NCBI RefSeq assembly: GCF_041080675.1
Contig: NZ_CP163520.1
Coordinates: 6,014,001 to 6,078,000 of the forward strand
From: Streptomyces sp. cg36
GTDB taxonomy: Bacteria; Actinomycetota; Actinomycetes; Streptomycetales; Streptomycetaceae
Reading direction: 5' to 3'
DNA: 64,000 nt
Made by a program: the position numbers and the translations under genes. The notes under the pieces are model-generated. The model worked only from the letters and a program-made list of their open reading frames with translations, searched no databases and was not told where the DNA came from. Every line of letters begins with the position of its first letter. Positions within the stretch are counted from its first letter, which is position 1. Shown here piece by piece: positions 25,065 to 28,355 of the stretch.

Positions 25065-25146
25065 CGCCGCCGCCCCGCCCCGGCCGCCCGGACCCGCCGT
25101 CCGGGTACGGTCGGGGCATGGCCTGCGACCAGGGAACGTGCGACTG

Positions 25147-25683
25147 ATGGCCCGCCGGTACGACCCCGAACGGCGGCGCCGCATCATCGACGCGGCGATC
25201 CGGGTGGTCGGCGAGCGCGGCATCGCCGGGCTCAGCCACCGCAGCGCCGCCGCCGAGGCCGATGTGCCGCTGGGCTCCACCACGTACCACTTCGCCACCC
25301 TCGACGAGCTGCTGGTCGCCGCGTTGCGCCAGGCCAACGAGGGGTTCGCCGCCGTGCTCCGCGACCGCGGGGCGCTGGCGGCGCCGGGCGTGGACGTGGC
25401 CGCCGAACTGGCCCGGCTGATGGGCGAGTGGATCGCGGGGGACCGGGCGCGGGCGGAGCTGGAGTACGAGCTGTATCTGGCGGCGCTGCGGCGCCCCGCG
25501 CTGCGGCCGGTGGCGGCCGAGTGGACCGAGGGCGTGGCCGAGCTGCTGGCCCCCCACACGGACCCGGTGACGGCGCGCGGCCTGGTGGCCCTGATGGACG
25601 GGATCTGCCTCCAGGCGCTGCTCACCGGCGGCGACTACGACGAGGAGTACGCGCGCGTGCTGCTCTCCCGGCTGCTGCCCTGA
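25147..25683 (+). CDS. TetR-family regulator
   Basis: A 178-residue regulator. The N-terminal HTH reads RRIIDAAIRVVGERGIAGLSHRSAAAEADVPLGSTTYHF, summarised here by its key HRSAAAEADVPLG helix pair at about residues 30-48. The ligand domain is helical and ends LLSRLLP. The ATG at 25147 is preferred over a GTG at 25138 because AGGGA (25131-25135) would be only 2 nt from the latter. It is followed after 78 bp by an SMR efflux gene, whose upstream region contains GTAC-centred repeats, so it probably represses that gene. Confidence 0.85.
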   Translation: MARRYDPERRRRIIDAAIRVVGERGIAGLSHRSAAAEADVPLGSTTYHFATLDELLVAALRQANEGFAAVLRDRGALAAPGVDVAAELARLMGEWIAGDRARAELEYELYLAALRRPALRPVAAEWTEGVAELLAPHTDPVTARGLVALMDGICLQALLTGGDYDEEYARVLLSRLLP

Positions 25684-25724
25684 TGGCACACCCGGCCGTC
25701 CACCCCACCGTTCACCCAGTCGTT

Positions 25725-25755
25725 GTGTACGGGTGTACGCATCGCTGTGTACGCT
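25725..25755 (+). promoter_or_regulatory. SMR promoter with three GTGTACG repeats
   Basis: GTGTACG occurs at 25725-25731, 25733-25739 and 25747-25753. The third overlaps TACGCT (25750-25755), a plausible -10 ending 6 nt before the ATG of the SMR gene, so the message may be leaderless. The repeats are candidate sites for the adjacent TetR protein. Confidence 0.45.
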
Positions 25756-25761
25756 CGGCGC

Positions 25762-26085
25762 ATGCCCTATGTCCTGCTTTCCTGCGCCATCGCATCGGAG
25801 ATCGCCGCGACCTCCGCGATGAAGTACAGCGAAGGCTTCACCAGGCTCTGGCCCTCGCTGGTCACCGTCTGCGGATACCTCCTCGCCTTCTATCTGCTCT
25901 CGCTCACCCTGAAGTCGATGTCGGTGGGCACCGCGTACGCGATCTGGTCCGGCGCGGGCACGGCCGTCATCGCCGTGATCGGCATGGTCTTCCTGGGCGA
26001 GACGATGACGGCCGCCAAGCTCGCCGGGATCGCGCTGGTCATCGGCGGGGTGGCGCTGCTCAACCTCGGCGGCGCGGCGCACTGA
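25762..26085 (+). CDS. Small multidrug resistance (SMR) transporter
   Basis: A 107-residue protein with four membrane helices and the SMR hallmarks: the essential glutamate in CAIASEIAATSAMKYSEGF, and AYAIWSGAGTAVIAVIG. It exports lipophilic cations by proton antiport, probably as a dual-topology dimer. The ATG at 25762 begins the family at the usual residue; an earlier in-frame start at 25723 is not needed. It pairs with the TetR gene just upstream. Confidence 0.93.
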   Translation: MPYVLLSCAIASEIAATSAMKYSEGFTRLWPSLVTVCGYLLAFYLLSLTLKSMSVGTAYAIWSGAGTAVIAVIGMVFLGETMTAAKLAGIALVIGGVALLNLGGAAH

Positions 26086-26112: not shown

Positions 26113-26997
26113 TCACGCCCCGGCGGCCCCCCGCACCACCGCCAGTGCCGCCCGCACGCTCTCCTCGACATCGGTGATCGGGTACAGCGCCTCCACCACC
26201 GTGCGGTCCCGGTCGACCACCAGCGTCAGCCGCTTGAGCCGGCTCACCCCGGCCGTGCGGAACGTCGGCAGCCGCAGCGCCGCCGTCAGCGTCAGCTCCG
26301 CGTCCGACAGGAGCGGGAAGCGCAGCCGCTCCTTGTCCGCGAACGCCCGCTGCTCGTCCGGGCGCTGGGTGGACACCCCGTGCACGGTCGCGCCCGCCGC
26401 CGTGAACTCCGCCAGCTGGTCGCGGTAGGTGCACGACTCCAGCGTGCACCCGGGCGCCCCCGGGATCCCGGCCCAGCCGGGCGGGTACGACTCCTTGCGG
26501 GCGTAGGCGCCCGGGAAGAGGTACAGGACCGTGTGCGGGGTGTCCGGCGACACCGGGTCGCGCGGCTCCCCGTCGAAGTCGGTCAGCAGGAGCGCCGGCA
26601 CCTTCGTGCCCACCAGCTCCCGTACCCGCTCGGTCTCCCCGGACGTCTCGGTCGCCGTGGCCATCGTCTCTCCTTCTCCCAGCACCCAGGTGTCTCCCCA
26701 GTCCTGGAGTGCGATCAGTACGGGCAGCAGGGCACGGCCGCGGGGGGTGAGCCGGTACTCGTACCGCACGGGGCGGTCCTGGTACGGCTCCCGCGTGAGG
26801 ACCTCGGTCTCCACGAGCAGCTTCAGCCGTTCGGCGAGCACCTTGCGGGACATGCCGAGCTCCCGCTGGAGCGCGTCGAACCGGTGCACCCCGCGTGCGG
26901 CGTCGCGCACGATCAGCAGGGTCCACCAGTCGCCGACGACGTCGAGGGCCTGGGCGATGGCGCAGTGCTCGTCATGGAGGCGAGTGCGTTGGGGCAT
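26113..26997 (-). CDS. HxlR regulator fused to a PrxQ/BCP-type peroxiredoxin
   Basis: A 294-residue two-domain protein. Residues 1-105 are an HxlR/DUF24 winged helix (HCAIAQALDVVGDWWTLLIVRD, key VGDWWTLLIVRD; LAERLKLLV; the wing YEYRLTPRGRALLP). Residues 112-294 are a bacterioferritin-comigratory-protein type peroxiredoxin, with PGCTLESCTYRD giving the peroxidatic and resolving cysteines in C-x4-C spacing, and FPLLSDAE. An ATG at 26664, with AAGGAG 5 nt upstream, could also start the peroxiredoxin alone. The gene is divergent from an MFS exporter and likely controls it in response to peroxides or thiol stress; that is inference. Confidence 0.85.
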   Translation of the reverse strand: MPQRTRLHDEHCAIAQALDVVGDWWTLLIVRDAARGVHRFDALQRELGMSRKVLAERLKLLVETEVLTREPYQDRPVRYEYRLTPRGRALLPVLIALQDWGDTWVLGEGETMATATETSGETERVRELVGTKVPALLLTDFDGEPRDPVSPDTPHTVLYLFPGAYARKESYPPGWAGIPGAPGCTLESCTYRDQLAEFTAAGATVHGVSTQRPDEQRAFADKERLRFPLLSDAELTLTAALRLPTFRTAGVSRLKRLTLVVDRDRTVVEALYPITDVEESVRAALAVVRGAAGA

Positions 26998-27032: not shown

Positions 27033-27078
27033 TTGACCTGCGGCCCCCATGCTGACATAGTCCGTTCCCATAAGGAAC
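27033..27078 (+). promoter_or_regulatory. MFS promoter with HxlR-type operator
   Basis: TTGACC (27033-27038), 17 bases, then CATAGT (27056-27061) is a good promoter for the gene starting at 27123. GTTCC-CATAA-GGAAC (27064-27078) is a perfect inverted repeat lying on the expected start point. It extends outward to AGT...ACT, 8 of 10 positions in each arm. Such a site suits the divergently encoded HxlR protein as repressor. Confidence 0.6.
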
Positions 27079-27122
27079 TCACTCCGGGTTCCGGCTCGTA
27101 CGACACCAGGGGGGACGTCGTC

Positions 27123-28355
27123 GTGAAGACCTTGCGCGCGGTGCCCAGAACCGTCCGGATGCTCTGCTTCGGCATCTTCTTCAACGCGGTCGTGAGCTTC
27201 ACGTTCGTCTACCTCTTCGTCTATCTGACCGGCCCGCGCGGACTGGGCGTCGCCCAGGCCGGGCTGATCGGCGGGATCGGCGGAATCGGCCTGGTCGCCG
27301 GGAACTTCACCGGCGGCTGGTTCGGCGACCGCTACGGCCACCGCCGCGCCCTGCTCGCCGGAGCCCTGGTCAGCGGCAGCCTGCTGGCCGTCCTCGCGCT
27401 GCTGCCCACCCCGGTCCTGATCGCCGCGCTCCCGCTGGCCCAGTACGCCTCCGGAGTCGTCCGGGCCGCCAACTCGGCGCTGGTCGCCGTCGGCGTCCCC
27501 GAGGGCAGCCGCCGCCAGGGCTTCGCCGTGATGCGGTTCGCCTCCAACGCGGGCTTCACCGTCGGACCGCCGCTGGGCGCGCTCGTCGCCGCCCACTGGT
27601 CCTACGACTGGCTCTTCGCCGCCGACGGCATCGGCACCCTGCTCTTCGCCGCCTACGCGGCCCGGGTGCTGCCCGCCCGCGCCGCCGCCCCCGCCCGGCC
27701 GGGCCACGAACGGGCCGAGCGCGGCCTGTGGCAGGAGCTGCGGATGCGGCCCGCCGTGCTCGTCCTGCTCGCCGCGATCGTCTGCGTCGACCTCGTCTAC
27801 CGCCAGCAGTACTCCACCCTGCCCGTCTTCCTCGCCGACCACGGCATGGACGCCCATGTCTACGGCTGGCTGATCGCCGTCAACGGCGGTGTGATCCTCT
27901 GCCTCGAACTGCCCGCCGTGCACGCCCTGCGCGGCCGGGCCCCGCTCCCGGTGATCGGCTGCGGGCTGCTCCTGGTCGGCCTCGGCTACGCGCTGCTCAT
28001 CCCGGGCGCCTCGCTCGGCTGGGCCCTCGCGCTGATGGTGTCGCTCACCCTCGGCGAGATCCTCTACAAGACCACCGCCACCGCCTACGTCGCCGACCAG
28101 GCGCCCGCCCACGCCCAGGGCCGCTTCCAGAGCCTGTACGCCGGTGCCTCCATCAGCGGGCAGGTGCTGGCCCCGCCGCTCGGCGGCGCCCTCTACACCG
28201 CCGCGCCCGCCCTGCTGTGGCCGCTGTGCGCCGTCCTGGCGGGCCTCGCCGGGCTCGCGGTGCTGCGGGCGGGGGGTTCGCGGGCGCCGCTGACCGGGGC
28301 CGACGCGCGCTCGTCACTTGAGACCGGTTCGCCCCGGCGGGCCGCCGCCGGTTAG
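27123..28355 (+). CDS. MFS transporter
   Basis: A 410-residue transporter with about 12 hydrophobic segments. The MFS motif between segments 2 and 3 is [14 protein letters not shown], and [12 protein letters not shown] near the middle is typical of DHA1-type drug exporters. The GTG at 27123 follows AGGGGGG with about 8 nt spacing. It is divergent from the HxlR-peroxiredoxin gene, with a strong promoter and operator between them, and ends only 10 bp before dapD. Probably an exporter of a reactive or toxic compound; substrate unknown. Confidence 0.83.

Follow-up and report, generated by a model that had tools for sequence, protein, structure and literature searches.

The question raised by this locus of Streptomyces sp. 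cg36 is how a transcriptional regulator that carries a peroxiredoxin within its own polypeptide would be controlled, and which of its cysteines would be involved in this control. The initial annotation of the window, by which we refer to the entire analysed stretch of 64,000 nucleotides, had described an HxlR repressor joined in one open reading frame to a complete PrxQ/BCP-type peroxiredoxin, and had proposed that the protein senses peroxide with the C-x4-C pair of its enzyme domain and directly releases DNA.

Architecture and distribution of the fusion

The gene and the two domains of its product are located as follows:

26113..26997, minus strand: HxlR-peroxiredoxin fusion gene, one open reading frame with ATG start, encoding 294 amino acids
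26683..26940, minus strand: HxlR winged-helix domain, residues 20-105 (Pfam PF01638, 83.7 bits against a cut-off of 20.8)
26116..26610, minus strand: peroxiredoxin domain of BCP/PrxQ fold, about residues 130-294 (Pfam AhpC-TSA and Redoxin; Foldseek match to 5epf)

The presence of an HxlR-type winged helix above the curated cut-off places the protein among the HxlR/DUF24 regulators, and in sequence comparisons this half finds its best PDB matches in 4gcv and 2f2e, with the structures of HypR, HxlR, YodB and QsrR also being matched. In the second half, AhpC-TSA covers residues 181-269 (54.7 bits against a cut-off of 26) and together with Redoxin residues 181-270; the NCBIfam cut-offs for PrxQ are missed by far (45.9 against 260 and 45.4 against 140 bits). 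A model of the whole protein, predicted by AlphaFold2 from an alignment of 70 rows (56 fusions including the window protein, 8 peroxiredoxin-only and 6 HxlR-only sequences), is of high confidence (pLDDT 91.2, pTM 0.87). Foldseek searches with this model confirm a thioredoxin/peroxiredoxin fold of the BCP kind for the second domain, with M. tuberculosis BcpB (5epf) as top PDB match (TM 0.86 by target length) and the leading matches being of the BCP/PrxQ/AhpE kind, the 1-Cys AhpE among them. The open reading frame, the Pfam matches and the joint model, which is the structure prediction that the annotation had suggested as a check, all bear out the union of both domains in a single frame.

All 120 homologues listed in a protein search (the best 120 of 2299) contain both domains, and the fusion is therefore more than a chance event. 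In a sample of the genus, 84 of 295 genomes show a match at E ≤ 1e-60 that in each case spans both domains, and the preservation of the full-length frame excludes a chance join or a sequencing error as its origin. The outcome that the annotation had named as speaking against its proposal, namely that the two domains are always made separately, is found in neither set, and the family survey it had called for shows the fusion to be widespread in the genus. Among 61 relatives, the match spans both domains in 19, of which 9 belong to a single genus from a different family within the order and one to another family of the class. A sample of 396 genomes of the phylum (E ≤ 1e-30) contains the full-length fusion in three, the window's genome and two others of its genus, and the best 80 of 171 confirmed stretches in a scan of named genomes comprise 79 from Streptomyces and one labelled 'Actinobacteria bacterium'. 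As far as sampled, the fusion is patchy and restricted to actinomycetes. Two divergent copies are present in each of the genomes G488 and G616 of the genus sample, and a decayed relative with a match to residues 172-293 and two internal stop codons is found in genome G030 (loci L028 and L207).

Where database names are given, the listed homologues are mostly called 'winged helix-turn-helix transcriptional regulator'. One entry among the best 120 of 2299 (P0115) is annotated as 'DNA-binding HxlR family transcriptional regulator/peroxiredoxin', and the architecture is therefore already held in databases. A search of the open literature, with most subscription journals outside its scope, found among the papers listed no characterised regulator of either the HxlR-peroxiredoxin or the MerR-peroxiredoxin type described below. 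Both results agree with the annotation, which knew of no characterised example and allowed that such fusions may exist in databases.

Candidate operator, promoter and neighbouring genes

Upstream of the fusion gene, the following features were assigned:

27060..27082, minus strand: candidate palindromic operator GTGAGTTCC-TTATG-GGAACGGAC, a conserved block in 103 distinct upstream regions
27033..27061, plus strand: promoter of the divergent MFS gene, TTGACC-N17-CATAGT (one found, against 0.0 with sd 0.2 in shuffled sequences; boxes conserved)
27123..28355, plus strand: divergent MFS transporter gene, the likely target (Pfam MFS_1, 156.8 bits; GTG start chosen by us)

The 103 distinct upstream regions, obtained from 120 of the window's clade, share a single strongly conserved block, GTGAGTTCC-N5-GGAAC. 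In a scan with the pattern GTNAGTTCCNNNNNGGAACTNAC, which allowed up to 3 mismatches in 16 positions and covered 330 bp upstream or the first 60 bp, the corresponding 23-bp palindrome GTnAGTTCC-N5-GGAACTnAC was found upstream of 160 of 166 fusion loci, a set which includes near-identical loci and counts that of the window twice (L007, L009). At up to 2 mismatches, 141 of the 166 loci contain the palindrome. By clade, it is present in 120/121 loci of the window's clade, 14/16 of clade B, 10/11 of C, 4/6 of D, 9/9 of E, 2/2 of F and 1/1 of G, with two sites in 13/16 loci of clade B and 3/9 of clade E. Since the pattern was derived from these same loci, the test lies in the contrast with their flanks and not in the match rate; the flanking remainder of the loci contains 6 sites in 1,145,278 bp.

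In the 9.0-Mb genome of the strain, a 15-letter version of the pattern matches one place with 0-1 mismatches, which is 27060-27082. A genome-wide regulon is unsupported, as the four further places, at 2 mismatches of 15, are taken as chance; the reversed control pattern matches none. The palindrome at 160 of the fusion loci and the single close match in the genome together make a local autorepressor the most likely function, and we are fairly confident in assigning autoregulation to the predicted operator at 27060-27082.

The same kind of site is located just upstream of 6 of 24 single-domain HxlR relatives, from which it follows that the palindrome probably belongs to the HxlR subfamily, whose DNA specificity would have been retained in the fusion. 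In many single-domain relatives (such as L121, L122 and L126), we noticed by eye a C-terminal stretch with a C-x2-C motif, which perhaps takes the position of the peroxiredoxin as a zinc ribbon.

The candidate operator overlaps with the MFS promoter at its -10 box and expected start. For clades E and F, the right arm of the palindrome extends into a TATACT box, which precedes the chosen start codon by a few bases. This arrangement points to repression as the putative mode of action, although a contrary case is provided by B. subtilis HxlR, which is described as an activator (PMC7835342).

Within the window's clade, which comprises 121 loci, the MFS gene lies divergent to the fusion in 99; the other 22 show no MFS match and retain at least one other neighbour. 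Outside this clade, where neighbouring genes were called by a simple GC3-based picker, 34 of 45 loci have as their nearest upstream gene a divergent one at a distance of at most 260 bp, counting overlaps; of the rest, 5 have no called gene and 6 a gene on the same strand, in five cases more than 1 kb away. Nine divergent neighbours scanned with Pfam comprise exporters of the MFS type (three), ABC-2 permeases (two) and single cases of an O-methyltransferase, an enolase and a PAS-domain protein, the ninth having no Pfam match. The expectation of one fixed target gene is rejected, since the divergent neighbour varies by clade; such variation of the targets under an unchanged operator is in line with a local autoregulator. 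The enolase paralogue, which is divergent to the fusion in one clade (L198:611-1906, identified by Pfam; L025, L189 and L197 by sequence likeness), would be an unexpected target of a redox regulator. The gene of the PAS-domain protein is divergent to a clade B fusion (L182:3355-4734). In the window, genes of a TetR-like and an SMR-like exporter protein, assigned by eye at 25138-26085, are oriented towards the fusion gene, which they accompany in most loci of the clade; the names of other neighbours, such as DapD and DapA, were likewise given by eye.

Conserved cysteines and the peroxiredoxin active site

The protein encoded in the window contains three cysteines, whose codons are listed together with the loop preceding the second of them:

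26962..26964, minus strand: codon of C12, homologue of the sensing cysteine of the HxlR family (257/257 fusions)
26446..26448, minus strand: codon of C184, by position the peroxidatic cysteine (257/257 fusions), which aligns with PGCT of 5epf
26431..26433, minus strand: codon of C189, second cysteine of the C-x4-C pair (209/257 fusions), not conserved across the family
26449..26511, minus strand: extended active-site loop separating P162 from C184, which exceeds that of PxxxTxxC by about 15 residues and has alanine in the place of threonine

Conservation was evaluated in an alignment of 257 distinct sequences, which were gathered from 120 database proteins, 164 locus proteins and the window protein after dropping 28 duplicates, with L182 and L185 excluded due to frames that are overlong at the N-terminus. 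As most rows are near kin of the window protein, clusters weigh more than rows.

Members of the HxlR family contain a conserved sensing cysteine near the N-terminus, the counterpart of C12 (PMC7835342), and homologous residues are described to sense oxidants or electrophiles in HypR, CatR and HxlR (PMC7835342, PMC6943732). The match of C12 to Cys14 of HypR was deduced from the start of the sequence alignment. That HxlR proteins usually employ a single cysteine had been stated in the annotation, which did not mention that such a residue is also present here. The expectation that C12 would be special to the fusion was rejected, as its equivalent is found in 24/24 single-domain relatives (sequences read by eye), and the conservation of C12 thus needs no transfer of oxidation between the domains. 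It might be C12 alone that responds to electrophiles, quinones or thiol-reactive drugs, with the peroxiredoxin being a tethered detoxifier or a mycothiol-reset 1-Cys enzyme that does not steer DNA binding. Such an arrangement would be in line with the conservation of C12 with and without a peroxiredoxin, the exporters among the divergent neighbours, the kind of operator shared with six of the 24 single-domain relatives and the 1-Cys AhpE among the fold matches. It leaves unexplained, however, why every clade preserves the joint frame and why MerR regulators carry the same peroxiredoxin, and we consider it unlikely. A formaldehyde sensor resembling B. subtilis HxlR, which detects its ligand through a Cys-x-Lys pair (PMC7835342), is rejected, since this pair is absent in the residues following C12 (CAIA, CSIA, CGIA, CAVA), which were checked in up to four of the commonest forms per clade.

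The C-x4-C pair noted in the annotation is indeed present as C184/C189. In the 257 fusions, position 189 is Cys in 209, Arg in 44 and Ser, Ala or Gly in 4 sequences. Two small clusters (1/1 and 2/2) and 206 of 213 members of the window's cluster retain the cysteine, which is replaced by Arg in 41/41 members of the six other clusters. Outside the HxlR fusions, the 120 best-listed of 7392 matches comprise 72 short proteins, of which 71 contain C-x4-C, and 48 long ones, which all contain it; a further exception is the peroxiredoxin of L233, with Arg at the second position. On a tree of the peroxiredoxin parts (78 rows, built by a quick method and with weak support for 36 of 75 inner branches), from which L232 and L233 are missing since the motif search did not detect them, the HxlR fusions form one group with a support of 97, and the cysteine has changed to Arg at least twice, with Ser, Ala and Gly rows left out of this count. 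In clades C, D and G, nine proteins contain exactly two cysteines, C12 and C184, when counted from residue 4 on, with possible N-terminal extensions outside the count; any intramolecular disulfide in these proteins must join C12 and C184. The pattern of conservation in the family favours these two residues as the working pair. An extra cysteine at residue 160 is present in 183/257 fusions, including 14/14 of clade B, and is replaced by Leu in the window protein.

These data also bear on the switch proposed in the annotation. As elaborated here, C184 and C189 would form the intramolecular disulfide of PrxQ, and the unfolding of a helix would be relayed to the HxlR dimer to release DNA, rendering C12 unnecessary. 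This would correspond to the known chemistry of PrxQ/BCP proteins, which are the best fold matches, and the pair is found in the window protein and nearly all of its cluster. Still, the six clusters with Arg at position 189 share the same operator and the nine two-cysteine members have no third cysteine to engage. The C-x4-C pair is hence not a family-wide feature, and we regard the switch as an improbable explanation, which is possible within the window's own clade.

The canonical active-site motif of peroxiredoxins is PxxxTxxC. Of the complete peroxiredoxin described in the annotation, the fold and the residues C184, P162 and R256 are present (P162 and R256 in 257/257 fusions, T185 in 256/257), whereas the spacing of the motif is altered, with P162 standing 22 instead of 7 residues before the cysteine, and the motif itself is absent, with Ala181 at the canonical position of the threonine, three residues before C184. 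Among the 213 proteins of the window's cluster, 204 have Ala and 9 have Thr as residue 181. Elsewhere, this position holds Thr in 11/14 of clade B and Ser in 4/6 of clade D, and Ala in all stand-alone and MerR-fused rows of the tree. At a second place, the final residue of a YPx(T/S) motif, these stand-alone and MerR-fused rows have Thr or Ser in 38/38 cases, and the fusions contain Thr in 13/14 of clade B, 10/11 of C, 6/6 of D and 1/1 of G, Ser in 9/9 of E, Ala in 2/2 of F and Ala (A164) in 213/213 of the window's cluster. Our guess would be that the YPx(T/S) residue substitutes for the canonical threonine. Because threonine is missing from both candidate places in the window protein (A164, A181), its peroxiredoxin domain may be slow or may rely on another residue. 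The two alanines in the window's cluster and the loss of the second cysteine in others would also be compatible with a peroxiredoxin that has turned into a non-catalytic ligand-binding or dimerisation domain, but a dead active site would be expected to drift, whereas C184, P162 and R256 are invariant and T185 is nearly so, and we consider this alternative very improbable.

A second fusion, the proposed mechanism and known systems

Among the same 120 listed peroxiredoxins (the best of 7392), 47 are joined to a MerR DNA-binding domain as identified by Pfam (examples are L029:1480-2433, L031:1024-2025 and L038:1483-2454), and C-x4-C is kept in all 47. The remaining one of the 48 long proteins, P0220, combines the same peroxiredoxin with a methyltransferase domain (Pfam). 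On the tree, where the MerR label of eight locus rows was assigned by eye, the MerR fusions are found in a part separate from the HxlR fusions and are interspersed with stand-alone forms, with weak internal support. Because they occupy different parts of the tree, the HxlR and MerR fusions represent separate events; the MerR group itself may still be of single origin. The independent fusion of the same subfamily supports the mechanism proposed below. Redox sensing via this domain appears probable, and control of DNA binding by oxidants through the fused peroxiredoxin is our best reading of the sequence data.

HxlR-family proteins act as homodimers. In the mechanism that we propose, a dimer of the HxlR domain would bind the palindrome at 27060-27082 and block both its own promoter and that of the divergent MFS gene. 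The fused peroxiredoxin would serve as oxidant receiver, with C184 being oxidised by peroxide or a related oxidant and the oxidation being handed over to C12, located where helix 1 of the HxlR domain begins, either within or between subunits. Oxidation of C12 would shift the winged helices, leading to the release of DNA and the production of exporter and regulator. In the window's clade, C189 might additionally form the usual PrxQ disulfide with C184, either as intermediate or as a reset path.

For the redox-controlled autorepressor speak the operator at the fusion loci, its overlap with the promoter, the invariance of C12 and C184 and the confident joint model. The transfer from C184 to C12 is consistent with the repeated change of C189 to Arg and with the nine two-cysteine members in three clades; against it stand the presence of C12 in single-domain relatives and the retention of C189 in the window's cluster, whose peroxidase chemistry may be weak, given the lack of threonine at both places. 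A self-contained, redox-controlled autorepressor with transfer from C184 to C12 is thus the best explanation we can offer, although we hold it with reservation, and the transfer step, taken by itself, is a tentative proposal. More speculative is its generalization to a natural thiol relay in one polypeptide, where C184 oxidises C12, a dispensable second cysteine has been lost more than once and the peroxiredoxin is a portable module of HxlR and MerR regulators.

The well-known bacterial peroxide sensors OxyR, OhrR and PerR react via their own thiols or metal. If our proposal is true, a regulator with its own peroxiredoxin would borrow enzyme-grade reactivity for an ordinary thiol switch, a relay principle known from eukaryotic two-protein relays and man-made probes, and a subfamily joined to two unrelated DNA-binding families would constitute a portable oxidant-sensing module. 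With a defined candidate operator, a likely target and two or three cysteines, the idea is directly testable with point mutants. The fusion may be what governs an exporter in many streptomycetes, and it could be employed as a ready-made oxidant sensor for transcription.

With HypR, YodB, CatR, QsrR and B. subtilis HxlR, as members of the HxlR/DUF24 family, the fusion has in common the winged helix, the N-terminal cysteine and, as a predicted binding site, a palindrome at its own promoter; it differs by carrying a whole peroxiredoxin and, from the formaldehyde-sensing HxlR, by having no Cys-x-Lys pair. In the two-Cys switch of the HypR type, the second sensing cysteine resides inside the HxlR domain, whereas the HxlR domain of the window protein has no second cysteine, its other two being C184 and C189. 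With BCP/PrxQ proteins and the 1-Cys AhpE it shares the fold, C184, P162 and R256 and, in the window's clade, C-x4-C, but it contains a long active-site loop, no canonical threonine, an attached regulator and often an Arg in place of the second cysteine. In the MerR fusions of actinomycetes, the N-terminal DNA-binding domain is unrelated to HxlR, and the peroxiredoxin that follows it is of the same subfamily; C-x4-C is retained in all listed cases, and the peroxiredoxin part belongs to another branch of the tree.

In the name of the probe roGFP2-Tsa2ΔCR, ΔCR denotes the loss of the resolving cysteine. If C184 passes its oxidation to C12, the fusions would have discarded the second cysteine as engineers did in peroxiredoxin-based probes. 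In roGFP2-Orp1 and roGFP2-Tsa2ΔCR, the components are likewise fused, although by engineering (PMC7662651, PMC7481202). The same idea, a peroxidase that passes oxidation to the thiol of a regulator, is described there for Orp1-Yap1 and PRDX2-STAT3 (PMC7662651, PMC7481202), which are two-protein systems, whereas in the HxlR fusion the proposed transfer would take place within a single polypeptide chain or between its copies.
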